64,000 bases of DNA from Gimibacter soli. Lineage in GTDB: Bacteria > Pseudomonadota > Alphaproteobacteria > Sphingomonadales > Kordiimonadaceae. Numbering within the stretch: position 1 is the stretch's first letter; each line of letters starts with the position of its first letter. The notes beneath the pieces were generated by a model, which saw only the letters and a list, made by a program, of their open reading frames with translations, was not told the origin of the DNA and made no database searches. This document shows, piece by piece, positions 31,533 through 46,476 of this stretch. Made by a program: the position numbers and the translations under genes. The stretch is taken from the NCBI RefSeq assembly GCF_028463845.1, contig NZ_CP116805.1, positions 2,480,001-2,544,000 of the forward strand. Direction: 5' to 3'.

Positions 31533-32082
31533 GGGCGTCTTCGTCCATATCGAGGATTTCCGTCGCGAGGCTATAGGAAAAGCCGCCGCGCATCATGGCG
31601 CCCAGTTCCTTGCGGCGACGGTCGTCGCTTTGCTCCTTGCCCGTACCAAAGGCACCGAACCGGCGGCGACGCGCCAAAGCAGCCGCCGCTCTGCGATCCA
31701 GTGAGGCACCTTCGTCGGTATCGATTGTTTCCAGCGCCCCGGCCACGCCCTCTTCGCCGATGCCCCGGTGGCGCAGGTCGGCCGCAATCGCGCGTCCGGG
31801 CTTGCCCTTGCGCAGCAGCGTGGCGGCGCGGGCGCGGGCATAGGCCGCGTCATCCACATAGCCCAGCTCCACGCAGCGGTCGGCCACGGCCTCAACCCAG
31901 CCTGCCTCCTCCGTGCTTGGCGGGGCGTCGTCCTCATGCCGTCGGCGCACCTTGCGGATCAGCACCTCTACAAGCCGGCTTCGTGTTGCCGAATAACGCC
32001 CCAGATAATGCAGCGCCGCCCGTTCCAGCCATTCCTTGGTGACTGGCCGGGCCCGGCGTGCCTTGGCGGGGTCAGAGTGCAC
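31516..32082 (-). CDS. recX: RecX-family regulator of RecA
   Basis: 188 residues from a GTG at 32082, preceded by GGAG seven bases upstream and overlapping the aminotransferase stop by 11 bases. Sequence shows the repeated three-helix RecX pattern: ALHYLGRYSATRSRLVEVLIRK, CVELGYVDDAAYARARA, GKPGRAIAADLRHRGIGEEGV, RRRKELGAMMRGGFSYSLATEIL. RecX caps or disassembles RecA filaments. recA is not adjacent; instead the gene is coupled to a class V aminotransferase gene. Confidence 0.85.
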   Translation of the reverse strand: MHSDPAKARRARPVTKEWLERAALHYLGRYSATRSRLVEVLIRKVRRRHEDDAPPSTEEAGWVEAVADRCVELGYVDDAAYARARAATLLRKGKPGRAIAADLRHRGIGEEGVAGALETIDTDEGASLDRRAAAALARRRRFGAFGTGKEQSDDRRRKELGAMMRGGFSYSLATEILDMDEDALRELL

Positions 32083-33244
32083 CGATCCGCTCCACAAAGC
32101 GGTCGATATCTTCTTCCGACAGATAATAGTGCGGCGATGCGCGAAGTGTGGTGTCGACCCCGCGTGCCTCAAGGTCGATCCGTGTATGCGCCACCGACGC
32201 CACATTCACCGCGATACCTTCTGCTTCCAGCAGCGCTTTCACTGCTGCCGGGTCATGCCCCTCCTTGCGGAAGGTCACGATGGCGCCGTAAGCGCCGGGC
32301 GGACAGGTCATGGTGACACCGGGAAGGCTGGCAAGACCCGAGCGAAGCCGGTCAGCGAGGCCAAGTGCCCGCGCCATCAGCTCAGCCGGGCCATGGTCGC
32401 GGAAATAGCCAAGCGCAGCCCCGAAACCGAGGACGGCAACCACATTGCGCTCCCATGCTTCAAAGGCGCGGGCATCATCCCTGAGGGCAAAGCGGTCGGT
32501 CGCGACCCAGGCGCTGTTGTTGGTGACAAAGGCGAGCTCAAGCCGCCGCCGCATTTCAGGCTTCACGTAAAGGAAGCCCACACCGCGCGGCCCGCGCAGG
32601 AACTTGCGCGCCGTGCCGATCATCATGTCGCAGCCGATCTCGTCCACATTCACCGGCACATGGCCTGCGGACTGGGCGGCGTCCAGCAGGAACGGCACCC
32701 CCTTGGCCCGTGCCACCTTGCCAACCGCCGCAACAGGATTCACCTGCCCGCTTGAAGACGGCACATGCACGAGGCTGATAAGCCGGGTGCGGGCATCGAC
32801 AAGGCTTTCGAGGGCAGCCACATCAAGCTCGCCGTTCGCGCCGGGCGGTGCCACGCGGATTTCGATCCCGCGCCGCTCAGCCTGATGCAAATAGGCAACA
32901 TAGTTGGCACAATATTCATTGTAGCCGGTGACGAGATTGTCGCCCGGCTCGAACGGAACACTGTAGAAAAGCCGGGTCCAAGCATCCACCGCACCGCTTG
33001 TCAAAGCATAGTCCGCTGTCTTGCCGCCAAAGAGGGCTGCAAGCGACATATAGACGCCGTCCATCTCCGCCGCCGTGCGCTCCTGCCCCACGTAGCCGCC
33101 AGTCTCTGCCTCGAGTTTCAGCTGCTTTTCCATGCGCTCGATCACCGGCCGCGGCATCAGGGCCGAACCGGCATTATCGAGGTGCAGTCGCGTGGCCGCC
33201 CCTGGTGTGTCGTTACGCAGATCGTTCAGGTTCTGTTCAGGCAT
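32072..33244 (-). CDS. Class V PLP-dependent aminotransferase (cysteine-desulfurase-like)
   Basis: 390 residues. LHLDNAGSALMPRPVIERM at the start is typical of the NifS/CsdA-like fold; PLP contacts in SLVHVPSSSGQVNPV and LLDAAQSAGHVPV, and the Schiff-base lysine in TARKFLRGPRGVGFLYV near residue 225. The C-terminal domain contains TLRASPHYY. The loop cysteine needed for desulfuration is not evident, so it is more likely an aminotransferase or lyase of the isopenicillin-epimerase-like group. Coupled to recX. Confidence 0.87.
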   Translation of the reverse strand: MPEQNLNDLRNDTPGAATRLHLDNAGSALMPRPVIERMEKQLKLEAETGGYVGQERTAAEMDGVYMSLAALFGGKTADYALTSGAVDAWTRLFYSVPFEPGDNLVTGYNEYCANYVAYLHQAERRGIEIRVAPPGANGELDVAALESLVDARTRLISLVHVPSSSGQVNPVAAVGKVARAKGVPFLLDAAQSAGHVPVNVDEIGCDMMIGTARKFLRGPRGVGFLYVKPEMRRRLELAFVTNNSAWVATDRFALRDDARAFEAWERNVVAVLGFGAALGYFRDHGPAELMARALGLADRLRSGLASLPGVTMTCPPGAYGAIVTFRKEGHDPAAVKALLEAEGIAVNVASVAHTRIDLEARGVDTTLRASPHYYLSEEDIDRFVERIGAL

Positions 33245-33548
33245 ATCAAATGTCTTCCGCTGTCATCTTTTGGCCGCAATGGCTCTCTAATCGAACTCGC
33301 AGACTACCCGGCAGGCCAGAAATCACTTGCGCCGGAGCCGCGCAGATTGTAATTCAGCCGTAACATTCGGGACAAAACTAACTGCCTGAAATGAATAAAA
33401 TGGGACCCGGGCGAATCAAGGATTTTCTTTCGGGTTTGCAAGCAAAATATCAGTTCCAGGGACGGGACCGACGGCGAATCGGAACGACCCTCGTATGTTA
33501 TTTGGTACCGGTCCGTTTGTCTGGATCTATTTGGTTGAAGCGAGCGCT
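33245..33548. other. Divergent intergenic region upstream of the ceramide operon
   Basis: About 300 bases between the minus-strand aminotransferase and the plus-strand acyl-ACP synthetase. It must contain the promoter of the spt operon. I see no clear -35/-10 pair, CtrA box or long palindrome. An in-frame ATG at 33495 lies within it but lacks a good ribosome-binding site. Confidence 0.45.
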
Positions 33549-35282
33549 ATGACTTCAGTAACGCCTACCCTTGACCCCACCCTGCCGCGTCGCTTTGCGG
33601 ACTTCGATACTCTTGTCGACGCAATGGAATATGCGGCGCAGGGTATTCGGGGCGCCAATTTTTTTGACGCACGGGGTGATCTTGTAGAGTCGGTTACCTG
33701 GACCGAAATTCGTGACCGCGCCCGTATCATCGGCCGCAAACTGACGGGCCTTGGCTTCAAGCCGGGCGACCGCATTGCGTTGATCGCCGAAACGAGCGCC
33801 AATTTCGTGGCCTTTTTCGTGGGCTGCCAGTATGCGAGCGTCCTGCCCGTGCCACTGCCCCTGCCGACCTCGTTCGGTGGCAAGGAAGGCTATGTGAGCC
33901 AGCTGCAGGGCCAGATGCAAAGCTGCGATGCCTCGGGCATCATGGCGCCGGAATTCATGAGCAGCATCATCGCCGAAGCCACCGAAGGCATGAGCCTGCG
34001 CTTCAAAGGCTCCTACGCTGACTATGCCGCCGCCGATGCAGACGCCGAGCATAACCTGCCGACCGCAGATGACCTCGCTTACCTGCAATATTCTTCCGGC
34101 AGCACGCGCTTCCCGCACGGTGTGGCGGTTACCCACCGGTCGCTCCTTGCCAACACCTTCGGCATGGGCTTCCACGGCGTGAAGCTGCAGGATACCGACC
34201 GCTGCGTTTCCTGGCTGCCTTTCTACCATGACATGGGCCTTGTCGGCACGCTCCTCACCACCCTCACCTGCCAGGTATCGGTGGACTTCATCCCGACCGA
34301 GGAATTTGCCCGCCGCCCGCTTACATGGCTGCGTGTTCTGTCGAACAACAAGGGCACCATTTCCTACAGCCCGACCTTCGGTTTCGATGTCTGCTCGCGC
34401 CGCGCTGCCATGCGCGCCAGCGCCCTTGAAGGCCTCGATCTTACCAGCTGGCGCGTGGCCGGTATCGGCGGCGACATGATCCGCCCCGACGTGATGCGTG
34501 ACTTCTTCGAGACCTTCCGGTCGATTGGCCTCAAGAAAACGATTTTCCTGCCGAGCTACGGCCTTGCCGAATGCACCTTGGGTGTGAGCTTCGGCGAAGT
34601 GGGCAAAGGGATCGAGATCGATCTCGTCGAGGAAGCCCTTCTGGGCGGCGACCGCCACCTCCTCGTCACCAACTCCAAGGACAACGACCGCAAGCGCGAA
34701 GTTGTCAACTGCGGCAAGCCGCTCCCCGAATATGAGATCGAAATCCGCGACGAAGACGACGCCGCCCTTGGCGAAGGCCATGTGGGCCGTGTGTTCGTAC
34801 GTGGCACCTCGGTCATGCGGGAATATTTCAACGATCCCGAAACCACCCGCGACGTTCTGTCGGAAGACGGCTGGCTCGACACCGGCGACATGGGCTACAT
34901 GAAGCGCGAGTGCCTCTATATCGTTGGCCGCGCCAAGGACATGATCATCGTCAACGGCCGTAACCATTGGCCGCAGGATATCGAATGGGCTGCCGAGCAG
35001 CTTCCGGGCGTGAAGGCCGGCGATATTGCCGCCATTTCGGTTCCCGGCGAGAATGCCGAAGAAGTGCCGATGATCCTTGCCCAGTGCCGCCAGTCGGACC
35101 CGGCGGACCGCGCCCGTTTCGCCGACATGCTGAAAAAGCATGTCCAGAAAACCACCGGCATCAACTGCCTGATCGAGCTTGTCGGCCCACGCGCCCTGCC
35201 GCGCACCTCTTCGGGCAAGCTCAGCCGCTCCAAGGCCCGCAACCAGTATCTGTCGGGCCGCCTGCAGGCCCTCGCGAGCTGA
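33549..35282 (+). CDS. Fatty-acyl-AMP ligase / acyl-ACP synthetase of the ceramide locus
   Basis: 577 residues from the ATG at 33549. An adenylate-forming enzyme: A3-type loop YSSGSTRFPHGVAVTH, in which the usual Gly-x-Pro-Lys reads Arg-Phe-Pro-His, SWLPFYHDMGLVG typical of acyl-AMP ligases, SYGLAECTLG, and the hinge GWLDTGDMGYM ... GRAKDMIIVNGRNHWPQDIE. This HDMGL/YGLAE pattern is the FAAL type. In the caulobacter ceramide pathway the matching gene loads a fatty acid on the dedicated ACP. The next gene starts 1 base after its stop. Confidence 0.9.
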   Translation: MTSVTPTLDPTLPRRFADFDTLVDAMEYAAQGIRGANFFDARGDLVESVTWTEIRDRARIIGRKLTGLGFKPGDRIALIAETSANFVAFFVGCQYASVLPVPLPLPTSFGGKEGYVSQLQGQMQSCDASGIMAPEFMSSIIAEATEGMSLRFKGSYADYAAADADAEHNLPTADDLAYLQYSSGSTRFPHGVAVTHRSLLANTFGMGFHGVKLQDTDRCVSWLPFYHDMGLVGTLLTTLTCQVSVDFIPTEEFARRPLTWLRVLSNNKGTISYSPTFGFDVCSRRAAMRASALEGLDLTSWRVAGIGGDMIRPDVMRDFFETFRSIGLKKTIFLPSYGLAECTLGVSFGEVGKGIEIDLVEEALLGGDRHLLVTNSKDNDRKREVVNCGKPLPEYEIEIRDEDDAALGEGHVGRVFVRGTSVMREYFNDPETTRDVLSEDGWLDTGDMGYMKRECLYIVGRAKDMIIVNGRNHWPQDIEWAAEQLPGVKAGDIAAISVPGENAEEVPMILAQCRQSDPADRARFADMLKKHVQKTTGINCLIELVGPRALPRTSSGKLSRSKARNQYLSGRLQALAS

Positions 35283-35283
35283 T

Positions 35284-36231
35284 ATGAGCGACCCCGTGGC
35301 GACGGCACCCGTCGTCGCCCTGACCGGGGCGACCGGTTTTCTCGGCGGTCATCTGATCGATAGTCTTTTGCGTGCCGGATACCGCGTGCGTGCCCTCACC
35401 CGCCGCACGCCCACCGACAACCGCACCGGGCTTGAGTGGATCAAGGGCGACCTTGACGACGAAGACGCGCTTGAAGATCTCTGCGAAGGGGCCGAGGCCG
35501 TCATCCATGCCGCTGGTCTTGTGAAAGCGCTCAGCCGCAGTGACTATTTCGACGTCAACCTGAACGGCACGCTCGCCGTACTGAAGGCGGCAGCCGACGA
35601 AGACGTGAAGCGCTTCTTCCTTGTCTCCAGCCTGTCGGCCCGCGAGCCGCGCCTGACCCATTATGGCGCCTCGAAAGCCGCAGCCGAGCTTGCCGTATCG
35701 GCGCGTCCCTGGCCGTTTCGCTGGACCATCATCCGCCCGCCTGCCATCTATGGCCCCGGCGACATGGAAATCCTGAAGCTGTTCAAGGCGACCCGGTTTG
35801 GCCTTCTGCCCAACGGCGGCTCGCGCGACAATCGCTTCTCGATGATCCACGGCGCCGACATGGCCGAGGCCATCGTTGCCATGCTGAAGGGCGGTTTTGG
35901 AGGCCAGATCGTGGAAGTGGACGACGGCCGTGACGGCGGTTACCGGATCGACGATATCGCCAGGGCGCTCGGCGACGACGAGAAAACACCCCGTGTGCTG
36001 GCCATCCCGCGCCCGCTGGTGATCTTTGCCGGCGCTATCGGCAGCCTCGTCGGACGCATCATCGGCAAGCCGCTCACGCTCAATCTGGACAAGGCCCGGC
36101 TGATCACCCACCCGGACTGGCTGGTGCGCGGCGCACGGCGCCCGTCGATCCCCGGCTGGACCCCCGTTTACGACCTGAAATCGGGCCTAAAAAACACAAT
36201 TGAATGGTATCGCCTGAACCGCTTTTTGTGA
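35284..36231 (+). CDS. cerR: NAD-dependent epimerase/dehydratase-type SDR, probable ceramide reductase
   Basis: 315 residues from the ATG at 35284. Extended-SDR features: ALTGATGFLGGHLIDSLL (GxxGxxG) near residue 11, D-rich KGDLDDEDALEDL, VIHAAGLVKALSRSDYFDVN, FLVSSLSAREP, the active-site HYGASKAAAEL (YxxxK) and IIRPPAIYGPGD. In bacterial sphingolipid synthesis the oxidised ceramide formed by N-acylation of 3-keto-sphinganine is reduced by an SDR of this type (CerR in Caulobacter). Position between the acyl-ACP synthetase and the ACP/SPT pair makes that role likely; the gene symbol is by analogy. Confidence 0.85.
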   Translation: MSDPVATAPVVALTGATGFLGGHLIDSLLRAGYRVRALTRRTPTDNRTGLEWIKGDLDDEDALEDLCEGAEAVIHAAGLVKALSRSDYFDVNLNGTLAVLKAAADEDVKRFFLVSSLSAREPRLTHYGASKAAAELAVSARPWPFRWTIIRPPAIYGPGDMEILKLFKATRFGLLPNGGSRDNRFSMIHGADMAEAIVAMLKGGFGGQIVEVDDGRDGGYRIDDIARALGDDEKTPRVLAIPRPLVIFAGAIGSLVGRIIGKPLTLNLDKARLITHPDWLVRGARRPSIPGWTPVYDLKSGLKNTIEWYRLNRFL

Positions 36232-36306: not shown

Positions 36307-36555
36307 ATGGCAAACGCCCAAACCCTCGACCGTATTTTCGAACTGGTCACCCCCTTCAACAAGAAGGGCATTGAACTTCAAGCGGACACGACTTTCGCGA
36401 CAGACCTTGATCTCGACAGCCTGACCGTGATGGATCTGGTGGCTGAAATCGAAGACGCGTTCGACATCATCCTGCCGCTCAATCTGCTGCCCGAACTCGA
36501 AACCATCGAGCAGGTGGCCGACGCCGTCGACCGCATCGTGGCCGACAACGACTGA
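36307..36555 (+). CDS. Acyl carrier protein dedicated to sphingolipid synthesis
   Basis: 82 residues, acidic, four-helix ACP. The 4'-phosphopantetheine site is Ser 38 in DLDLDSLTVMDLVAEIED. It is shorter in helix I identity to the housekeeping AcpP (no GADSLD motif) and lies 22 bases before spt, as in caulobacter-type loci where the ACP carries the acyl chain used by serine palmitoyltransferase. Confidence 0.93.
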   Translation: MANAQTLDRIFELVTPFNKKGIELQADTTFATDLDLDSLTVMDLVAEIEDAFDIILPLNLLPELETIEQVADAVDRIVADND

Positions 36556-36577: not shown

Positions 36578-37783
36578 ATGGACCTGTTTGACAAATTCGA
36601 TCCGCTGATCGCCCAGAAATCCAGCCTGCCGTTCGAGAAGGCCGACCCCTTCAAGGTAGTGATGGAAAAGGTTCTCTCCGAGACCGTTGCGATCATCGAT
36701 GGCCGCGAGACCATCCTTGCCGGCACCAACAATTACATGGGCATGACCTTCAACGAGGAAGCGATTGCTGCCGCCAAGGAAGCCCTGGACAATTACGGCA
36801 CCGGAACAACCGGCAGCCGCGTCCTTAACGGCACCTATTCGGGCCATAAAGGCCTCGAGAAAACTATCGCCGACTTCTATGGCATGGACCATTGCATGGT
36901 CTTTTCCACGGGCTATCAGGCCAACCTTGGCATGATCTCCACCCTCGCAGGTGTCGACGATTATGTCATCATCGATGCCGACAGCCATGCCTCGATCTAT
37001 GACGGCTGCGCCATGGGCAATGCCACCATCGTGCGCTTCAAGCACAATGACATCGAAAGCATGGAAAAGCGCCTGAAGCGCCTGCCGGAAGGCGTTGGCA
37101 AGCTCGTTGTCGTCGAAAGCCTTTATTCGATGCTGGGCGATGCCGCCCCGTTGAAAGAACTTCTGGAAACCGCCAAGAAATACGGCTGCACCACGCTCGT
37201 GGACGAAGCGCACTCGATGGGCTTCTGCGGCGAAAAAGGCCGCGGCCTTTGCGAGGAACTCGGCGTCGAGCATCTGGCTGATTTCATCGTCGGCACCTTC
37301 TCGAAATCGGTTGGTACCGTTGGCGGCTACTGCGTTTCGAACCATCCGAAATTCGATGTGCTGCGCCTTGTGTGCCGCCCCTATATGTTCACGGCTTCGC
37401 TGCCGCCGAGCGTGGTGGCGTCGGCCACGGCAGCCATCAAGGCGCTGGAGCGCAGCGGGAACCGCCGTGCCCACCTGTGGGAAAATGCCCGCCGCCTGCA
37501 TTCGGGTCTGAAAGCCGCCGGCTTTACGCTGGCGACCGAAACGGCAACGAGCCCGATCATCGCGGTTTGCCTGCCGGACCCCCTGATCGCCACCAAATTC
37601 TGGGAAAAGCTGCTCCTGAACGGCGTTTACGTGAACATGGCCCTGCCGCCTGCCACGCCCGCCGGTTACAACCTGATGCGGGTCAGCGTTTGTGCGCAGC
37701 ATACGACCGAACAGATCGACGAGATCACCCGCCGCTTCATCGCCACGGCAGAAGAACTGGGCCTGAACGTCAAGGCTGCCTGA
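36578..37783 (+). CDS. spt: Serine palmitoyltransferase
   Basis: 401 residues, soluble homodimeric bacterial type. Alpha-oxoamine-synthase motifs: NNYMGMTF near residue 51, TGSRVLNGTYSGH near 78, the PLP-stacking His 138 in DADSHASIYDGC, ESLYSMLGD near 180, DEAHSMG at 209-215, and the PLP lysine 243 in GTFSKSVGTVGG. The sequence follows the Sphingomonas enzyme closely by eye, closer than to KBL or BioF. It condenses L-serine with an acyl thioester to 3-keto-sphinganine, the first committed step. Ends the operon at a strong terminator. Confidence 0.95.
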   Translation: MDLFDKFDPLIAQKSSLPFEKADPFKVVMEKVLSETVAIIDGRETILAGTNNYMGMTFNEEAIAAAKEALDNYGTGTTGSRVLNGTYSGHKGLEKTIADFYGMDHCMVFSTGYQANLGMISTLAGVDDYVIIDADSHASIYDGCAMGNATIVRFKHNDIESMEKRLKRLPEGVGKLVVVESLYSMLGDAAPLKELLETAKKYGCTTLVDEAHSMGFCGEKGRGLCEELGVEHLADFIVGTFSKSVGTVGGYCVSNHPKFDVLRLVCRPYMFTASLPPSVVASATAAIKALERSGNRRAHLWENARRLHSGLKAAGFTLATETATSPIIAVCLPDPLIATKFWEKLLLNGVYVNMALPPATPAGYNLMRVSVCAQHTTEQIDEITRRFIATAEELGLNVKAA

Positions 37784-37838: not shown

Positions 37839-38753
37839 CTATTTGAAGGCGCCCTTTTTCCTTAGGCTCCAGAAAAGCGAGATACCGGCGAGCACCGGGT
37901 GGCGGCGCATCCAGTCGGTGACTTCGATCTCCACCCCCGAATGACGGCGGATCTTCCAGGCAAGATAGTCGATGCCACCATCAAAGGTCATGGAAGCCTT
38001 CACAAGCCTGAGGAAACTGACAACCTTGCCGTTCCAGCGGCGCCGCGCCCAAAGGAAGCCGGGCGAGTGTGGCATCGGGATGCCGTCAGCCGCGATCACA
38101 CCGGCAAGCGACGGCGTGAAGCGGTCATACCGTTCCTGATCGAGCAGATAAAGCTCCAGCCCCTTGCCCGGCTTTTCAGACCGCAGCTCGGCCGCATAGG
38201 TGGCCTCGAAGGCTGCCACCCACCAGTCGCGCGGCGCCGCGCTTTCGATCAGCGGCTTTGCAGCCTCGAGCATCGTCACGCTGGCCTCAGCAATGGCTGC
38301 AGCAATCCGGTCGCGCGATGCGTCATCTTTGGCTGAAAGCAGTAGTGTCGGCTGCGAGAAACGCGCCCAGACGGAGACATTCAGGCAGCTGCGCCCGGTG
38401 CGGTATTCAAGATCGGCAAGCGACAGGACGGCATATTTGGACCGCACGATCATGCCGCCATGATTGAACTCATGATAAAACACGTTCGGCGGGATCAGCT
38501 TGTTGGCAACGGCCAGAAACCGGCTTTTATAGGCCGCAGCATAATCACTGACGATCACATAGAAATCGAGGATCTTGTCCTCGATCTCGCCCGTCCGCAG
38601 GCAGGAACCATAGAAGAGCGTGCCAAGAGCGGCATCCCCATAAAGGGCGGCAATCCGGCTGGCGGCTTCAACCGCGGCCTCGGCGGCCGGGCGCTGCCAT
38701 TCCTGAAGGATGAAATCGCGGGCGCCCGCGCGGGCTTCCTGTGGCGTGGTCAT
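37839..38753 (-). CDS. Nucleotidyltransferase-like protein of the ceramide headgroup cluster
   Basis: 304 residues, no signal peptide. Near the N-terminus GTLFYGSCLRTG (Gly-Ser at 49-50) followed by EIEDKILDFYVIVSD (Asp 59 and Asp 63) resembles the GS...D-x-D core of pol-beta-type nucleotidyltransferases. The rest is mixed alpha/beta with a basic, hydrophobic C-terminal part (residues about 240-304) that may bind membranes. It sits next to spt and 16 bases downstream of the lipid-kinase gene. By position it corresponds to one of the cpg genes for ceramide phosphoglycerate in Caulobacter; I infer a headgroup role and cannot name the reaction. Confidence 0.72.
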   Translation of the reverse strand: MTTPQEARAGARDFILQEWQRPAAEAAVEAASRIAALYGDAALGTLFYGSCLRTGEIEDKILDFYVIVSDYAAAYKSRFLAVANKLIPPNVFYHEFNHGGMIVRSKYAVLSLADLEYRTGRSCLNVSVWARFSQPTLLLSAKDDASRDRIAAAIAEASVTMLEAAKPLIESAAPRDWWVAAFEATYAAELRSEKPGKGLELYLLDQERYDRFTPSLAGVIAADGIPMPHSPGFLWARRRWNGKVVSFLRLVKASMTFDGGIDYLAWKIRRHSGVEIEVTDWMRRHPVLAGISLFWSLRKKGAFK

Positions 38754-38769
38754 GCGTGTTGGCCGCGCG

Positions 38770-39768
38770 TCAGAGCCGGACGAAGGTGAGGCACTTGTCG
38801 CCCCGCAGGACCACAGGGCGGCCCGGGATCGGCGTGTAGATTTCGCCGTCGAGCGTCATCGGGTCGCTGCCTTCGATAAGGATTTCGTCGCCGCAATAGG
38901 TGTGCACGCCTTCTGCCGGGCGGCGGCCAAACACGCCGGTGAGCAGGTCGCGCATGCCGCGCCACACATTGGCGCCGCCAAATTCAACCGCTGCGAAACG
39001 AAGGCCACCAAGTCCGTCCTCGGCATAGGGGCGCAGGCCGAACAGAAGCCGGTCGAGCGTCGTCGCCGTCACGATGGCGAAACGCCCGGTCAGCGTTACC
39101 CTGCCCCGTACATCAAGCTGCATGGGTTCGGACGCCATCAGGTTGCGGTCCTTGCCAAGGCCGGCGGCGGACGAGATCAGCTTGAAGGCCGACCACAGGT
39201 GCGCCATCCAGTTGGGCAGGCCAAGGCTGTAGGCATTCTCGCGGCACCAGAAGATGCCTTTCACGATACCGGCAGTCCCGAAGAAGGTGCCAACCTTGGG
39301 GTGCGATCCGTCGCCAAGGTCCAGCTCGATCAGCTGGCGGCTGGTCAGGTTGTCGTCCACCTTGCCGAAGGCCGCGAGGCGCAGCAATTTTTTGAGGACA
39401 GCATCCGGCCGCCCTTTGGCGCCAAGGTCTGCAGCCGTCATGTTCGTCTTGCCGCCGGGCAGGAAGGAAACCGGCGGCGTCGATTTGAAGGGGTTGCGGT
39501 AGAGAAGTGCAGCAAGCACGGCACCGATCGTGCCGTCGCCGCCGTTGATGACCACGAGGCCGACGCCGGCACGGGCGAACAGCGCAAGGCCTTCATCGAT
39601 GGATTCGATGCCATCAAGTTCGAAATGGATCACATGCGGGGTGGCATCCACAATGGAGCGGATGCGGCTCATGCCCTCGGCATTGGTGGAACTGCGCGGG
39701 TTGGAAAGAATACCGACGAGCAAGATGCCCGATTTGCCTTCTTCCACGATATGCCGCTCATGCTGCAT
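38770..39768 (-). CDS. DAGK/LCB5-type lipid kinase, probable ceramide kinase
   Basis: 332 residues. The diacylglycerol-kinase catalytic domain is clear: ILSNPRSSTN near residue 18, VVINGGDGTIGAVLAALL (GGDGT) near 75, and SFLPGGKTNMTAADLG near 105, where the usual GTxND reads GKTNM. Later HTYCGDEILIEG and an acidic PMTLDGEIY (the D-G-E metal/lipid site). In Caulobacter the kinase CpgB of this family phosphorylates ceramide, and the gene lies beside spt as here. Ceramide as substrate is inferred from context. Confidence 0.87.
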   Translation of the reverse strand: MQHERHIVEEGKSGILLVGILSNPRSSTNAEGMSRIRSIVDATPHVIHFELDGIESIDEGLALFARAGVGLVVINGGDGTIGAVLAALLYRNPFKSTPPVSFLPGGKTNMTAADLGAKGRPDAVLKKLLRLAAFGKVDDNLTSRQLIELDLGDGSHPKVGTFFGTAGIVKGIFWCRENAYSLGLPNWMAHLWSAFKLISSAAGLGKDRNLMASEPMQLDVRGRVTLTGRFAIVTATTLDRLLFGLRPYAEDGLGGLRFAAVEFGGANVWRGMRDLLTGVFGRRPAEGVHTYCGDEILIEGSDPMTLDGEIYTPIPGRPVVLRGDKCLTFVRL

Positions 39769-39844
39769 CGTGCGCGTTCCAATCCCTGCTATGCTGACCG
39801 GCGTCTTCTTACCGTTTCAACAGCCAGCCTGCAAGCATCGTCGG

Positions 39845-40354
39845 TCAGCTACGCCGGAGCTTGCGCCGTTTCTCGGTCTGTTCCTTGTCTTTCCCGAACA
39901 TATATTGAAGATCGATAGAAACCAATGTTTCTCCGGCGGGTGCGTCAAAAACGACATCTTCATGGTCGGGTGCCGAGAGGCCAAGCTTGGGATTGTTCGA
40001 AAAACCGAAGCCTTCCGAGAAAAAATCGGATTTCCCGTTCGCATTGCGGTCATGCAGGATCACCAGCGCATAACGGCCGGGTGCAGGGAGCGGCACACAG
40101 ATGCTGGCATCGTCCTCAAGGGCGGGCACCTCGATGCGAACGAGCTTTTTGCCCTTCTTCAGGAACTCTGCCTTGTCGCTACTGTAAACCTGCGCGCGCA
40201 GGTTACCCTCCGCCGAGCGGATATTGTGGATTTCTGCGCGGATCACGGCGCCGCTTGGCGGTACCTCGCAATCAGCTGATGACTTTTCTTCGGCCTGGAC
40301 CGGGACCGAAACCATTGTCAGGGCAAGCAGGAAAGGAAGCGTAATGCGCTTCAA
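39845..40354 (-). CDS. Secreted DUF2141 protein
   Basis: 169 residues with a signal peptide (RITLPFLLALTMVSVPVQA). DUF2141 features: EIHNIRSAEGNLRAQVYSS, VPLPAPGRYALVILHDRNANGK, and EGFGFSNNPKLG. A C-terminal tail is highly charged (GKDKEQTEKRRKLRR). The D-x-N-x-N-G-K stretch is a likely calcium-binding loop. Same strand and 76 bases upstream of the lipid-kinase gene, so it may be the first gene of a headgroup operon; periplasmic location would suit a lipid-binding or trafficking function, which is conjecture. Confidence 0.85.
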   Translation of the reverse strand: MKRITLPFLLALTMVSVPVQAEEKSSADCEVPPSGAVIRAEIHNIRSAEGNLRAQVYSSDKAEFLKKGKKLVRIEVPALEDDASICVPLPAPGRYALVILHDRNANGKSDFFSEGFGFSNNPKLGLSAPDHEDVVFDAPAGETLVSIDLQYMFGKDKEQTEKRRKLRRS

Positions 40355-40524: not shown

Positions 40525-41715
40525 ATGCTGACCCTTCTTGACCGCTATGTCCTGCGCCTTGTCATGACCCCGCTCATGACCACGCTCGGTATTGCGGCCC
40601 TCCTCCTTATCCTCGAGCGAATGCTGCGGCTTTTCGACTTCGTGGTGAACGAGGGCGGCCCTGTGGGCGTGGTGTTCGAGATGCTGGCGAACCTGACGCC
40701 GCACTATATGGGGCTTGCCCTGCCCATCGGGCTTTTCCTCGGCATCCTTGTCGCCTTCCGGAACCTTTCACTTTCAAGTGAGCTCGATGCCCTGCAGACC
40801 AACGGCGTCGGCCTTGGCCGTTTGCTGCGCCCGGTCCTGATGCTGGCGCTTCTCCTGATGGCAGTGAATGTGGCGCTCGTTGGTTGGGTCCAGCCGCACA
40901 GCCGCTATGCTTACCGCGGCCTTGTCTATGACCTGCGCTCGGGCGCGCTTGGCGCCTCGATCCGGGTCGGCGAATTTGTCGAGATCGGTGACGACACCGT
41001 GCTTCGGATCGAAGAGTCGCACAATCAGGGCAGCGACCTGCGCGGTATCTTTGTCGAGCGCCGCGACAGCCGGGGCAGCATCGCCGTTTCCGCCGACCGC
41101 GGCGGCTTCTTTGCAACCAGCGACGAACAGACCGTGATGCTGCGGCTTTATGACGGCATGCTCATTGACCTTAACGAGAACCAGATGAAGCCGCGTGTGC
41201 TGTCATTCGATCAGCAGGACCTGACCTTCCGCCTGCCGACCGGCAGCACCTTCCGCGACCGGCTGGGCGAAGAGCTTGAGATGACCCTGCCGGAACTGTA
41301 CCGGCACCAGCATGACAGCAGCCTGCCCCCTGAAAGCCGCCAGCGCATGGAAGCCAACTTCCACTGGCGCCTGATGCACAGCCTGACCTTCCTTGTGTTG
41401 CCGCTCCTTGCCGTGCCCATGGGCATCACCAACAAGCGCGCCACCAAGGCCACGGGCTTCGTCGTCGGCCTCACGCTCGTCATCGTTTATAACGAACTGA
41501 TGGAAGCGATGGAGACGCTGATCATCAGCGGCCATTCTCCCTTTACCACCATGTGGCTGCTGTTTGCCGGTTTCACGATACTCAGCCTGTACCTCTTCCG
41601 CGTTGCCGCCTATAAGGTAGGCGGTGACCCGCTCGCATGGGTCAACGGCATCTGGAGCAGCATCAAGACACCGCTGATCCGCACGACCCGCCGACTGATC
41701 GGAGTGAAAGACTGA
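40525..41715 (+). CDS. LptF/LptG (YjgP/YjgQ) family permease, first of pair
   Basis: 396 residues. Three N-terminal membrane segments (RLVMTPLMTTLGIAALLLI; YMGLALPIGLFLGILVAF; VLMLALLLMAVNVALVGW), a periplasmic beta-jellyroll region (about residues 130-270: IRVGEFVEIGDD ... DGMLIDLNE) and three C-terminal segments, the layout of LptF/LptG. SELDALQTNGVGLGRLLRP matches the coupling helix contacting the ATPase. Canonical members pull LPS from the inner membrane with LptB. The pair here lies within the ceramide gene block. The TGATG overlap with the next gene shows translational coupling. Confidence 0.92.
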   Translation: MLTLLDRYVLRLVMTPLMTTLGIAALLLILERMLRLFDFVVNEGGPVGVVFEMLANLTPHYMGLALPIGLFLGILVAFRNLSLSSELDALQTNGVGLGRLLRPVLMLALLLMAVNVALVGWVQPHSRYAYRGLVYDLRSGALGASIRVGEFVEIGDDTVLRIEESHNQGSDLRGIFVERRDSRGSIAVSADRGGFFATSDEQTVMLRLYDGMLIDLNENQMKPRVLSFDQQDLTFRLPTGSTFRDRLGEELEMTLPELYRHQHDSSLPPESRQRMEANFHWRLMHSLTFLVLPLLAVPMGITNKRATKATGFVVGLTLVIVYNELMEAMETLIISGHSPFTTMWLLFAGFTILSLYLFRVAAYKVGGDPLAWVNGIWSSIKTPLIRTTRRLIGVKD

Positions 41716-42863
41716 TGGCCATGAAGTTCCTGCGCCCCCTGATGCCCTCGGGCACGCTGGCGCGCTACATGATCCGGATGCATCTCGGTCGCTTCTTCGG
41801 CATTCTCATCGGCCTCTGCGCCGTGCTGCAGCTTCTGGACCTTCTGGCCCAGTCGGACGAGATCATGGCGGCCGACGGCGCCACGTCAGCCTCGCTCATC
41901 ACCTATGTTGGCCTGCGCTTGCCGCAGATCATCAGCCAGTTCGTGCCATTTGTGGCGCTTCTTGCCACCCTTCTGACCCTAGCCACGCTCAACCAGCACA
42001 GCGAGGTGATCGTGATGAAGGCCGCCGGGCTTTCCGCGCACCGCATCCTCTTGCCTGTCGGCTATGCCTCCTTCTTCATCGCTGTCGCGCACTTCACCTT
42101 CAACGAAACCGTTGTGGTGGATGCCACCGACCAGCTCGATTACTGGGCCGAGCATGGCTACGCGATCGACCTGCCACCCAAAACCTCCAACACCGGGCGC
42201 GTGTGGGTGAAGGAAGGTGAGACAGTCATCCTTGTGGAAGCCGTCAGCCAGGTGCAGAACCGAGTGGTGCTAGACAAGGTCAACCTTTTCGAACGCGATG
42301 GCTCGGGCCGCCTCAAGGCCATTGCCCGCGCCGATTTTGCCTGGCACCAGGATGGCAAGTGGACTCTCCATGAGGTCCGCCGCTTTGACGCAGGCTCGCA
42401 CGAGCTTTCCGTCACGCCGCTTGAAGAATGGAATATCCCGACGCGTCCGCAGCGCTTCATGGCACTGACGGTGAAACCCAAACATGAATCGCTTTTCTCG
42501 CTGTGGCATTCGATCGATGAACTGAAGGCCGAGGGCCTGCCGACCGAACGACTGATGACGAGCCTGCTGCACAAGATTGCCGCCCCGGCCTCAAGCCTCC
42601 TGATGCCGCTGCTGGCCGCTGTCGCCGCCTTCGGTGTGCACCGCGCCGGCAGCCTGTTCATGCGGCTTGTGATGGGCATGGCGCTCGGTTTCGGTTTCTT
42701 CGTCGCCGACAATTTCATGCTGGCGATGGGCGAGTTCGGCGTGGCGCCGCCGCTGCTGGCTTCGTTTGCGCCTTTCCTTCTGTTCCTTGTCGTCGGCTAT
42801 GCCGTGATCTTCCATACTGAAGAAGGGCACAAACTGCCCCGCCGCAAAGAGGTCTCCGCGTGA
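41715..42863 (+). CDS. LptF/LptG (YjgP/YjgQ) family permease, second of pair
   Basis: 382 residues from the ATG at 41715 that shares one base with the previous stop; an ATG at 41721 is also possible. Six membrane segments flanking a periplasmic beta domain (VWVKEGETVILVEAVSQVQN, GKWTLHEVRRFD). The first cytoplasmic helix TLNQHSEVIVMKAAGLSAHRIL is the LptG-type coupling region. With the preceding gene it forms the two permease subunits of an Lpt-like exporter; the ATPase (LptB) is not in the window. GTGA overlap with the flippase gene downstream. Confidence 0.92.
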   Translation: MAMKFLRPLMPSGTLARYMIRMHLGRFFGILIGLCAVLQLLDLLAQSDEIMAADGATSASLITYVGLRLPQIISQFVPFVALLATLLTLATLNQHSEVIVMKAAGLSAHRILLPVGYASFFIAVAHFTFNETVVVDATDQLDYWAEHGYAIDLPPKTSNTGRVWVKEGETVILVEAVSQVQNRVVLDKVNLFERDGSGRLKAIARADFAWHQDGKWTLHEVRRFDAGSHELSVTPLEEWNIPTRPQRFMALTVKPKHESLFSLWHSIDELKAEGLPTERLMTSLLHKIAAPASSLLMPLLAAVAAFGVHRAGSLFMRLVMGMALGFGFFVADNFMLAMGEFGVAPPLLASFAPFLLFLVVGYAVIFHTEEGHKLPRRKEVSA

Positions 42864-44404
42864 GCGACCCTCACCTGTCGGATGCCGGGAAGGAAGAGGA
42901 CCAGCGTGCCCGCGTCGCTTCCGGCGCCGGGATGGCGCTGGTGGGCCGCCTTGGCGCCCTGATCGAGGTCGTATCGGTCATCTTCTTCACCTGGGCCTAC
43001 GGGGCCGTCACCTACGGCCTTTTCGCGGTTCTCTGGAGCTATGTGAAAGTCCTGACGGCGGTCAGCGACATCGCCATGACAACCGCCCTGCAGCGCTTCG
43101 TACCACGCGCCGAGGGCGAAGCTGCCGACCATGCGGCAGGCTATGCCCTCAAACTCAGCCTGATTGCTTCGAGCCTGATCGCACTTGCCCTGACTGTCGC
43201 GGCCCCCTTCCTTGGCCGGTTTGTGAACGCCGGGGACGGCGACGCCGAGCATCTGGTGCGCGTGATCCAGCTTTATGCGTGGGTGCTGCCCTTCTGGACG
43301 ATTGTCGAGGTCGCAACCGCCGCCATCCGGGCGCGGCGCACCTTCGGACCCGAAATCCGGGTGCGCATCTTCTATGAGCAAGGCCTTCGCCTCGTCGCAG
43401 CCCTCGCCTTCGCCGGGCTCGGCTTCAATACCTTCGGGCTTTTCGCGGCCCACCTTGTCAGCGTCATTCTGGCGGCGATCCTCGCCCTTCGCCTTGTTGC
43501 CAAACATTATAATTTCCGTGCTGTCATGGCGGCCCCGATGCGGGGATTGCAGGTACAGGCGATGCGCCGCTATGGCCGCACCGTGATGCCCGCGAACCTT
43601 GTGAAGAAGCTCTTCAGCGAATTCCCTGTCATGTATCTGAACCTGCTGCTGCCGGGCGCAGCGGGGGCGGCGGCTGGCGGCTATTATGCCGTGGCCCGCA
43701 AGGTGGCAAGCGCGCTACAACTGGTGCGCCTGACCTTCGAATATGTGATGGCGCCCCTGGCGGCTGAACGCGACGGCAAAGGCGACCGCTCCGCGCTTGG
43801 CGACATGTATGCCTTCGCGACCCGTATCTCGCTGGCGCTTGCCCTGCCCTTCGGCGTGTCGCTGATGGCCGCCCGCCATGACCTGCTGGCTGCACTCACA
43901 CCCGAGTTTCAGGTGGCGGGTAGCGCGATTGTGATCCTGTGCGTGGCGCGGATCATCGAGGCCGCAACCGGGCCATCGTCGGCGATTGTCGAGATGCTCG
44001 GCCACCGCAGCCTGCCGCTTATCAATGGCTTCGCAGGCCTTGCCGTGCTGCTTGCCCTCGGCTTCGCCCTCATTCCGGAACAAGGGGTTACGGGTGCCGC
44101 GTGGGCTGCTGCCTTCGGTATGAATACCACCGCCATCCTTGGCCTTATCCAGACGCATATGCTGTACCGTCTCAACCCCTACACCCGCCCCATGGTGCGC
44201 CCGCTGGCGCTCGGGATCCTTCTCGGGGCGCTGCTATTCGGCCTCGGCGACGCGCTAAACACCTTCGGCCCGCCCTTCGGCCTTGTTTCTGCCGTTTTTG
44301 GCTTTATGGTGTCGCTCCTGATTCTGGTACGGTACGGGATCGGCGCGGAAGATGCCGCTGCACTTGGACGTTTTGGACGTATCCTGCGGCACGGACGAGC
44401 CTGA
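42860..44404 (+). CDS. Polysaccharide/lipid flippase of the MOP (Wzx/MATE-like) superfamily
   Basis: 514 residues, start GTG at 42860 overlapping the LptG-like stop as GTGA. About fourteen hydrophobic segments; the first two-helix repeat contains GAMALVGRLGALIEV-type sequence followed by AYGAVTYGLFAVLWSYV, and mid-protein RYGRTVMPANLVKKLFSEFP, typical of oligosaccharide flippases. Strict translational coupling to the two Lpt-like permeases suggests that the three proteins move the same or related lipid-linked substrate. Substrate unknown. Confidence 0.88.
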   Translation: MSDPHLSDAGKEEDQRARVASGAGMALVGRLGALIEVVSVIFFTWAYGAVTYGLFAVLWSYVKVLTAVSDIAMTTALQRFVPRAEGEAADHAAGYALKLSLIASSLIALALTVAAPFLGRFVNAGDGDAEHLVRVIQLYAWVLPFWTIVEVATAAIRARRTFGPEIRVRIFYEQGLRLVAALAFAGLGFNTFGLFAAHLVSVILAAILALRLVAKHYNFRAVMAAPMRGLQVQAMRRYGRTVMPANLVKKLFSEFPVMYLNLLLPGAAGAAAGGYYAVARKVASALQLVRLTFEYVMAPLAAERDGKGDRSALGDMYAFATRISLALALPFGVSLMAARHDLLAALTPEFQVAGSAIVILCVARIIEAATGPSSAIVEMLGHRSLPLINGFAGLAVLLALGFALIPEQGVTGAAWAAAFGMNTTAILGLIQTHMLYRLNPYTRPMVRPLALGILLGALLFGLGDALNTFGPPFGLVSAVFGFMVSLLILVRYGIGAEDAAALGRFGRILRHGRA

Positions 44405-44512
44405 GACCTGCGTGCGGCACAGTGCCGCGTATCAGAAAATGATGTTGCGGTGCAGCCATCGAGGCTAGTATGACCGCGATTAGACAGCGAAAATGATTGC
44501 GGAGTGCAAGCA

Positions 44513-45301
44513 ATGCGGTTCAGCTTCCTGAAGCAGAAGAGCCATTATCTCGACAAGATGACCATCAAAGAACTGGTGGTCGCCTTCTTCGGCTATTATG
44601 CCGTGCAGGTGTATCTGGTGCTGGCGGCCGTCAGCCTTTATGTCGCCTTCACCTATGGCACCAGCCTTCTCATGGGCCTTGCAGCAGCCGCGATCGCCAT
44701 CGCGCTTTATCCGCTGTCGTGGTACATCACCCACCGCTGGATCCTGCACGGGCAGTGGCTTTACAAGAACCCGCTGACCGCCCCGCTCTGGAAGCGGATC
44801 CATTATGATCACCATCAGGACCCGCACCATCTCGAGGTGCTGTTCGGCGCGCTTTACACCACACTGCCGGCCATCGGCATCGTGACCATTCCGGCTGGCT
44901 ACTATCTGGACGGGATCGGCGGCGCAGGTGCGGGCTTCGCGGCAGGTGTGCTCTGGACCTGTTTCTATGAATTCTGCCACTGCATCCAGCACCTGAACTA
45001 CAAGCCCAAGAATGCGTTCCTGAAGCATATGAAGGAACAGCACATGATGCACCACTTCCATGATGAAGATGGCAACTATGGCATCACCAGCTTCTTCTGG
45101 GACAAGCTCTTTGGCACCTATTACCTGCGCAAGGAACGCCCCGTGAAAAGCACCACTGTCTTCAACCTCGGCTATACCGAGGAAGTCGCGGCGGTCTATC
45201 CGTGGGTCGCGAACCTTTCAGGCGGCGTCGATGACCGCCGGCCCCGCGAAAAACGCGATGGCTACAAATCCGGCGCAGAAGACACGAAGGCGGCTGAATA
45301 A
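44513..45301 (+). CDS. Fatty-acid-hydroxylase-superfamily membrane enzyme
   Basis: 262 residues from the ATG at 44513, with GGAG eight bases upstream (a GTG at 44504 overlaps that site and is less likely). Membrane segments near residues 20-65 and 100-140 surround the di-iron histidine clusters: THRWILHG, IHYDHHQDPHH, FCHCIQHLNY and QHMMHHFHDEDGNYG. This is the sterol desaturase / fatty acid hydroxylase pattern. In this locus a sphingoid-base or ceramide hydroxylase is the natural guess, but the family also includes carotenoid and sterol enzymes. Confidence 0.88.
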   Translation: MRFSFLKQKSHYLDKMTIKELVVAFFGYYAVQVYLVLAAVSLYVAFTYGTSLLMGLAAAAIAIALYPLSWYITHRWILHGQWLYKNPLTAPLWKRIHYDHHQDPHHLEVLFGALYTTLPAIGIVTIPAGYYLDGIGGAGAGFAAGVLWTCFYEFCHCIQHLNYKPKNAFLKHMKEQHMMHHFHDEDGNYGITSFFWDKLFGTYYLRKERPVKSTTVFNLGYTEEVAAVYPWVANLSGGVDDRRPREKRDGYKSGAEDTKAAE

Positions 45302-45336: not shown

Positions 45337-46476
45337 GTGAGCGAACTCATCATCCGGCCTGTTGTTACAAAGGCCGACCTCAAGACATTCATCCGCGTCA
45401 CCGAGCTCGTCTATAAGGACGACCCGGCCTTCATCCAGCCCTTGATGCTGGAGCGGCTTGAAAGCCTTTCGAAAGACAAGAATCCCTATTTCCTGCATGC
45501 GGAAGGCGAATACTGGATCGCCGAGCGCGACGGCATTGCCGTTGGCCGCATTTCGGCGCAGGTTGACCCGACCGTGCAGGAAAAGTGGGGCCCGGACCTC
45601 GGCCACTTCGGGCTCTTTGAGGCAACCGACTTTGAAGCCGCGGAAGCCCTTTTCAAAACCGCTGCCGGCTGGCTGAAAGCCAAGGGCATGAAACGCATCC
45701 AGGGCCCGTGGTCGCTGTCGGCCAACCAGGAATGCGGCATGCTCGTCAAGGGCTTCGAGACGCCGCCTGTGGTGATGATGCCACATGGCCGCCCCGAATA
45801 TGATGGCTGGCTGAAAAAGCTCGGCTTCGAAAAGGCCAAGGATCTGGTTGCCTGGTATCTCGATATCAAGGACGAGCCCGAAGAGCGCATCGCCCGTATC
45901 GTCGAAATGGGCAAGCGCAACAAGAAGATCAAGATCCGCGAGATCGATATGAAGCGCTTCAATGAGGAACTCGACCTCATCCTCGATATCTTCAACGACG
46001 CATGGGCGGACAACTGGGGCTTCTCGCCCTTCACGGACGCCGAAGCCGCGCACACCGCCGCCTCGCTGAAACCCATCGTGAAGCCCTACCGCACCTTTAT
46101 CGCCGAATATGACGGCGAAGCCGTGGGCTTCATGGTGACCATTCCTGATGTGAACCACCATATCCGTGACCTGAAAGGCAAGCTTTTCCCCTTCGGCATC
46201 TTCAAGCTCTTGGCTCGGATGCTGGGCAAAAAATCGGACGAGCGCGTCCGCGTACCCCTGATGGGCGTTCGCCAGTCAATCCAGAAATCGAAGGTCGGCG
46301 GCATCATCCCGATCATGCTGATCGAAGCCACCCGCCCGGGTGTGCGCAAACGCGGCGCCACCTTCGCCGAGCTCAGCTGGATCCTTGAAGACAACGAAGG
46401 CATGAACAACATGCTGCGCGAAGTGGCCTGCGTGCCCTACAAAACGATGCGCATGTATGAAAAGGCTATCGACTAG
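45337..46476 (+). CDS. bcerS: GNAT-fold N-acyltransferase, probable bacterial ceramide synthase
   Basis: 379 residues from a GTG at 45337 with GGGGAAG about six bases upstream. Two GNAT-like halves are suggested: YWIAERDGIAVGRISAQVDP near residue 60 and FIAEYDGEAVGFMVTIPDVN near 255. The spacing, length and C-terminal AELSWILEDNEGMNNML fit the GNAT-type ceramide synthase of Caulobacter, which N-acylates 3-keto-sphinganine. Proximity to spt, ACP and the SDR supports this, though I name it by analogy. The 3' end overlaps the convergent glycosylase-like gene by four bases. Confidence 0.8.
   Translation: MSELIIRPVVTKADLKTFIRVTELVYKDDPAFIQPLMLERLESLSKDKNPYFLHAEGEYWIAERDGIAVGRISAQVDPTVQEKWGPDLGHFGLFEATDFEAAEALFKTAAGWLKAKGMKRIQGPWSLSANQECGMLVKGFETPPVVMMPHGRPEYDGWLKKLGFEKAKDLVAWYLDIKDEPEERIARIVEMGKRNKKIKIREIDMKRFNEELDLILDIFNDAWADNWGFSPFTDAEAAHTAASLKPIVKPYRTFIAEYDGEAVGFMVTIPDVNHHIRDLKGKLFPFGIFKLLARMLGKKSDERVRVPLMGVRQSIQKSKVGGIIPIMLIEATRPGVRKRGATFAELSWILEDNEGMNNMLREVACVPYKTMRMYEKAID

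Follow-up and report, generated by a model that had tools for sequence, protein, structure and literature searches.

The sphingolipid cluster of Gimibacter soli

The window analysed here is a stretch of 64,000 nucleotides from the complete, 3.59 Mb genome of Gimibacter soli, and between positions 33495 and 46476 it carries a sphingolipid gene cluster (Table 1). A plus-strand run that ends in serine palmitoyltransferase (Spt) is followed by the minus-strand genes for a nucleotidyltransferase-like protein (NT), a lipid kinase and a secreted DUF2141 protein, after which a second plus-strand run opens with an LptF-like gene. All three minus-strand genes are real, as a first-pass annotation of the window had proposed, and are borne out by their open reading frames and by domain matches to PF00781 and PF09912. 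Its description of them as a divergent module needs correcting, since spt and the NT gene converge, and the divergent pair is that of the DUF2141 gene and the LptF-like gene. Among the best 80 loci from named genomes, the nearest counterpart of NT is that of Pseudokordiimonas caeni, at 91% identity.

Table 1. Genes of the sphingolipid cluster, with positions in the window and the evidence for each assignment
Feature	Position	Strand	Evidence
AasR-like acyl-ACP synthetase (AMP-binding; fatty acyl-AMP ligase)	33495..35282	+	PF00501 7e-53; NF006624 above cut-off
SDR, CerR-like NAD-dependent epimerase/reductase	35281..36231	+	PF01370 6.5e-28; position as Caulobacter CC_1164
Acyl carrier protein (AcpR-like), 82 aa, DLDSLTVMDL motif	36307..36555	+	Frame translation between SDR and spt
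Serine palmitoyltransferase Spt	36578..37783	+	NF047599 609 bits, cut-off 500
Tam41-type nucleotidyltransferase NT, proposed CTP:ceramide-1-phosphate cytidylyltransferase (CpgC-type), 304 aa	37839..38753	-	Tam41 fold and motif YGS...LDFY...KYAV.S...R..QP
Lipid kinase, proposed ceramide kinase (CpgB-type), 332 aa	38770..39768	-	DAGK_cat PF00781 3e-12, GGDGT motif; NT neighbour
Secreted DUF2141 protein, sphingolipid-specific clade, 169 aa, TTG start, invariant C29 and C86	39845..40354	-	PF09912 2e-22; clade support 99/94
LptF-like permease (LptF2 type)	40525..41715	+	PF03739 1.3e-65
LptG-like permease (LptG2 type)	41712..42863	+	PF03739 8.6e-66
Flippase-like polysaccharide exporter, counterpart of CC_1166	42860..44404	+	PF01943 5.9e-7
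Fatty acid hydroxylase, conserved in such clusters	44504..45301	+	PF04116 2.9e-20
GNAT-like protein, CerS-type N-acyltransferase	45337..46476	+	PF00583 2.8e-4; conserved position

Most such clusters keep the fatty acid hydroxylase gene next to the CerS-type gene; in Caulobacter the hydroxylase is reported to lie at a different place in the genome (CC_0202). At the other end of the cluster, a class V aminotransferase gene (EgtE/SufS-like; 32072-33244, minus strand) adjoins the AasR-like gene and is kept in many clusters of Kordiimonadaceae. PADLOC gave no result.

Association with spt and conservation of gene order

Among 289 alphaproteobacterial genomes, 43 encode Spt (42 above the curated cut-off, one truncated) and 38 hold a strong match to NT. 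The gene for NT is present in 37 of the 43 genomes with spt and in one of the 246 without it (Fisher p=3e-39, genomes of the same family not being independent), two further weak matches (E about 3e-4) having been set aside in this count. The sole exception, G282, has a similar cluster that includes a weaker Spt-like gene, and in the families of mixed content (f24, f28, f42 and f77) genomes have either both NT and Spt or neither. Frequencies so unequal with and without spt uphold the earlier suggestion that NT belongs to sphingolipid biosynthesis. The genomes with spt and without NT are G010, G125, G055, G064, G208 and G235; one of them, G055, holds a 1152-aa open reading frame resembling a CRISPR effector, near tandem repeats that translate as LRLARDHSVGRL, several kb from its Spt gene (L149:2222-10436).

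Neighbourhoods of NT homologues were sampled from the alphaproteobacterial genome set (36 loci) and from named genomes (the best 80 loci, mostly of Kordiimonadaceae, sphingomonads and Dongia). The order LptF, DUF2141, kinase, NT, Spt recurs in Kordiimonas, Eilatimonas, Iodidimonas, Sphingomonas, Sphingopyxis and Sphingosinicella, so the arrangement is not due to chance. Kinase and NT lie on one strand and no more than 200 bp apart in 99 of the 100 loci that hold both, with a median gap of 7 bp and a 4-bp overlap in 26 loci, start codons being approximate in the fetched loci, where genes were called from open reading frames and homology. Around this pair, genes for Spt, SDR, AasR, LptF, LptG, the hydroxylase and GNAT recur in the sampled loci. 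Twelve loci of Sphingobium and Novosphingobium (L109, L115, L117, L119, L123, L124, L131, L138, L141, L142, L144 and L147) have NT about 2 kb from Spt and no detected gene for kinase, DUF2141 or LptF/G within 10 kb.

The partner kinase has a DAGK_cat domain and a GGDGT motif and lacks a CxxxCxxC motif. A DAGK domain, a GGDG motif and the absence of CxxxCxxC are features of the CpgB type of bacterial ceramide kinase (PMC10331486), which the window protein also resembles in its length of about 330 aa and in being found with Spt. Likened to CpgB in domain, motif, length and context, the kinase is predicted to act on ceramide.

Comparison with Caulobacter and the expected headgroup

In Caulobacter, spt is followed by CC_1161 (CpgC), CC_1160 (ceramide kinase), CC_1159 (CDP-alcohol domain), CC_1158 (phosphoesterase), CC_1157, LptF2, LptG2, CerS, CC_1153 (CofC-like) and CC_1152 (PMC11324152). 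Dongia and related Rhodospirillaceae carry genes for Spt, NT, kinase, a CDP-alcohol transferase (PF01066), a metallophosphoesterase (PF00149), LptF, LptG, a second CDP-alcohol transferase, hydroxylase, GNAT and a CofC-like protein, a cluster collinear with CC_1162-CC_1153 in which NT consequently occupies the position of CpgC. Both in the window and in Dongia-type loci (L032, L087, L101, L102 and L137), NT sits between spt and the ceramide-kinase-type gene. A CDP-DAG-synthase InterPro domain is reported in CC_1161/CpgC, for which Geiger and colleagues suggested an NDP-ceramide (PMC11324152); the mechanism of CpgC is called unidentified in papers of 2025-2026. From collinearity and this reported domain annotation, NT is very probably of the CpgC type. 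As a side observation, the second CDP-alcohol transferase after LptG in Dongia-type clusters (L032:15527-16738; L087, L089, L101, L102, L107 and L137) is distinct from the CpgA-like one that they also carry.

Set against Caulobacter CC_1168-CC_1152 as a whole, the window cluster has in common the Spt operon, a ceramide-kinase-type gene with an adjacent CDP-lipid-synthase-like gene, an LptF/LptG pair, a flippase and a CerS-type gene, and in the Dongia relatives the gene order is the same as well. It differs in having a fatty acid hydroxylase inside the cluster and no phosphoesterase, CofC-like or CpgD-type gene. The parallel with the cpg genes of Caulobacter that the first-pass annotation had drawn thus stands for NT and the kinase, which take the places of CpgC and CpgB, and breaks down at CpgA: a PF01066 search of the whole genome found no CpgA-type CDP-alcohol transferase. 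Its only two proteins with this domain, read from sequence and neighbours, are PgsA (beside uvrC) and PssA (beside psd), and no candidate transferase for CDP-ceramide was found in the genome besides these.

As CpgA is missing, a second phosphoglycerate is unlikely and a lipid with a single headgroup would be expected. Since Caulobacter CPG requires CC_1160 and not CC_1159, CPG is our best guess for the product from this comparison; ceramide phosphoserine, phosphoethanolamine or phosphoglycerol, formed via PssA or PgsA, may be made instead.

A sphingolipid-specific clade of DUF2141

The DUF2141 protein of the window matches PF09912 at 79 bits (cut-off 24.4) and has an N-terminal signal-like stretch. 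Taken whole, the family occurs in 21 of 43 genomes with spt and 68 of 246 without (p=0.007), a co-occurrence that was weak and misleading, and splitting the family resolved the pattern. A profile trained on the copies from named clusters and applied to the DUF2141 genes found across the 289 genomes gave bimodal scores, of at least 92 bits or at most 75 bits, and in a tree the high-scoring proteins form one clade (support 99/94). With thresholds that were chosen after the gap in scores had been seen, and for which the tree gives the same split, the clade at 100 bits or above is found in 16 of 43 genomes with spt and in none of the 246 without (p=4e-15), the member at 92 bits being that of G282, whereas the low-scoring group has no association (10/43 versus 59/246, p=1.0). 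The proposed link between DUF2141 and spt therefore nearly fails for the family at large, which is only weakly tied to spt, and survives for the clade to which the window copy belongs. At least two cysteines are present in all 29 clade members versus 13 of 77 other DUF2141 proteins, and the window protein's C29 and C86 are conserved in every sequence of alignment A4. The window copy shares with DUF2141 at large the domain, the HDxNxNG loop and secretion, and differs in its separate clade, its two invariant cysteines and its restriction to genomes with spt; other members of the family lie near crtG carotenoid genes (PMC5989583).

The commonest neighbour of the clade is LptF/G, with LptF or LptG adjoining it in 11 of 17 genomes (G000, G031, G140, G221, G173, G105, G282, G193, G265, G022 and G208). 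The order in G022, phosphoesterase, DUF2141, LptF, LptG, is that of Caulobacter CC_1158-CC_1155, suggesting that CC_1157 belongs to DUF2141; the Caulobacter genome does carry a DUF2141 gene somewhere. CC_1157 itself has been called probably unrelated and without high cofitness (PMC11324152). The predicted structure of the window protein is a small beta-sandwich whose best fold match reaches Z 9.0, and because the fold search returned only common beta-sandwiches, with no clear enzyme match, no function can be read from the fold.

The first-pass annotation assigned DUF2141 to a periplasmic step in headgroup synthesis or transfer, so that all three minus-strand genes would build the headgroup. 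Such a role would suit the specificity of the clade for spt, the contiguity of DUF2141, kinase and NT in Kordiimonadaceae and many sphingomonads, and two genomes (G276 and G207) in which DUF2141 adjoins NT without LptF. We nevertheless consider it unlikely, given that the clade occurs in spt-bearing genomes in which NT and a kinase of the window type were not detected (G010, G125 and G208), is missing from most genomes with NT, keeps company chiefly with LptF/G and has a model with no clear match among enzymes. As the clade adjoins LptF/G and occurs without NT and kinase, the window DUF2141 is, on these sequence comparisons, more likely a periplasmic accessory to export than a headgroup enzyme. 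That it is a passenger with no part in sphingolipid metabolism, as the wide occurrence of the family without spt and the label given to CC_1157 in the same position could imply, is improbable in view of a well-supported clade confined to genomes with spt beside generic relatives that have no such association.

Fold and predicted reaction of NT

The NT of the window matches no Pfam or NCBIfam model, PF09139 (Tam41_Mmp37) included, and PF09139 matches 2 of 32 NT relatives (best 9.8e-7); scans with PF09139 of this genome and of control genomes were uninformative. A profile search of the PDB with A1 gave a weak match to Tam41 (6ig2, E=0.012), in which K-x-x-V-x-S and R-F-x-x-P segments are paired; a search with A3 did not find Tam41. 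The AlphaFold model (pLDDT 92.7) matches Tam41 and no other fold strongly: Z is 18.2 for the Firmicutes protein 7ecd (221 residues, rmsd 3.3), 14.6 and 14.3 for the yeast protein (6ig4 and 6ig2), and 7.8 for the next unrelated fold, ANT(4'); Foldseek pairs the model with Tam41 at 6.6e-8. By its model, the fold of NT is that of Tam41. NT had at first been taken as unrelated to the Cpg proteins, CpgD and CC_1153 being nucleotidyltransferases of other types, a view overturned by this fold and by the collinearity with Caulobacter.

Tam41 transfers CMP from CTP onto phosphatidic acid and keeps one of the three usual nucleotidyltransferase acidic residues (PMC11646218). The NT family has invariant Y48, G49, K106, R131, Q134, E189, R191 and E193 and a nearly invariant S50. 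D63 is invariant too, in every row of two alignments, and two positions after it almost all rows have Tyr and none has Asp. This reduced active site agrees with the one-of-three pattern of Tam41, the positions being read from sequence alignments rather than superposed coordinates. NT thus resembles Tam41/TAMM41 in fold and in a single conserved Asp in the nucleotidyltransferase site; it differs in identity (about 14% at aligned positions), in a C-terminal part that lies outside the structural match, in the missing PF09139 match and in its linkage to sphingolipid genes.

A normal CdsA is present in this genome, so NT is not its sole CDP-DAG synthase. Together with the Tam41 fold and the CpgB-like partner kinase, this makes a ceramide-1-phosphate cytidylyltransferase the simplest reading, and the modelled structure points to CTP + ceramide-1-phosphate -> CDP-ceramide as the likely reaction. 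NT might instead be a Tam41-type CDP-DAG synthase that acts on phosphatidic acid and is clustered here for regulatory reasons: CDP-DAG is the product of both Tam41 and its Firmicutes homologue (PMC11646218), and in vitro CpgB accepts DAG in addition to ceramide. The presence of spt in 37 of the 38 genomes with NT, the coupling to a ceramide-kinase-type gene and the genome's own CdsA make this distinctly unlikely. Still less can be said for the use of CTP to activate the headgroup (for instance phosphoglycerate to CDP-glycerate) before its transfer to ceramide-1-phosphate, for although Caulobacter CpgD makes CDP-glycerate for the second unit, CpgD is reportedly close in structure to IMPCT-type cytidylyltransferases, a different kind (PMC12275187), and the substrate known for the Tam41 fold is a lipid phosphate.

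A proposed route to CDP-ceramide and export

The gene content, the Tam41 fold, the coupling of kinase and NT and the dependence of both NT and the DUF2141 clade on spt are the observations from which we infer substrates, product and a role in export. On balance we think it probable that the cluster is the phosphosphingolipid branch of a Caulobacter-type system. The kinase would convert ceramide to ceramide-1-phosphate, onto which NT, an enzyme of the Tam41 kind, would transfer CMP from CTP, giving CDP-ceramide and PPi. CDP-ceramide would serve as the activated ceramide to which a polar group is attached; as in Caulobacter CPG, this would most likely be glycerate, with only one such unit expected. 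The exported DUF2141 protein, which a disulfide joining its two invariant cysteines may stabilise, would work alongside the neighbouring LptF/LptG pair in the periplasm, helping to carry the sphingolipid to the outer membrane. The fuller claim, that the Tam41 family includes a bacterial synthase of CDP-ceramide and that a DUF2141 clade works in the periplasm for a dedicated Lpt-type sphingolipid exporter, both of them new functions, is put forward more tentatively, as a possibility somewhat short of an even chance.

The Tam41 fold gives proteins of the CpgC type a specific and testable reaction, CDP-ceramide synthesis, which, if true, would answer the energetic objection to direct attachment of glycerate that has been raised (PMC11324152), and the step would be a general one, its gene being carried by 37 of the 43 spt-bearing genomes sampled. 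The route of sphingolipid export has been called unknown (PMC11324152); with a sphingolipid-only clade separated from the rest of DUF2141, a gene whose position in Caulobacter was labelled unrelated becomes a candidate for that export. If both proposals are true, a new function would be gained both by a fold known from a mitochondrial lipid enzyme and by an uncharacterised family.

NT homologues on plasmids and in other lineages

A contig titled as a Desulfobacterales metagenome-assembled genome (L125) carries phosphoesterase, kinase and NT genes in order, a case of possible transfer or mis-binning. Plasmid records (NZ_CP025062.1 and others) also carry NT homologues, annotated as hypothetical: these lie on large plasmids of Roseomonas mucosa and on plasmids of Pseudomonas, Diaphorobacter and Qipengyuania, and the trait may therefore be mobile.
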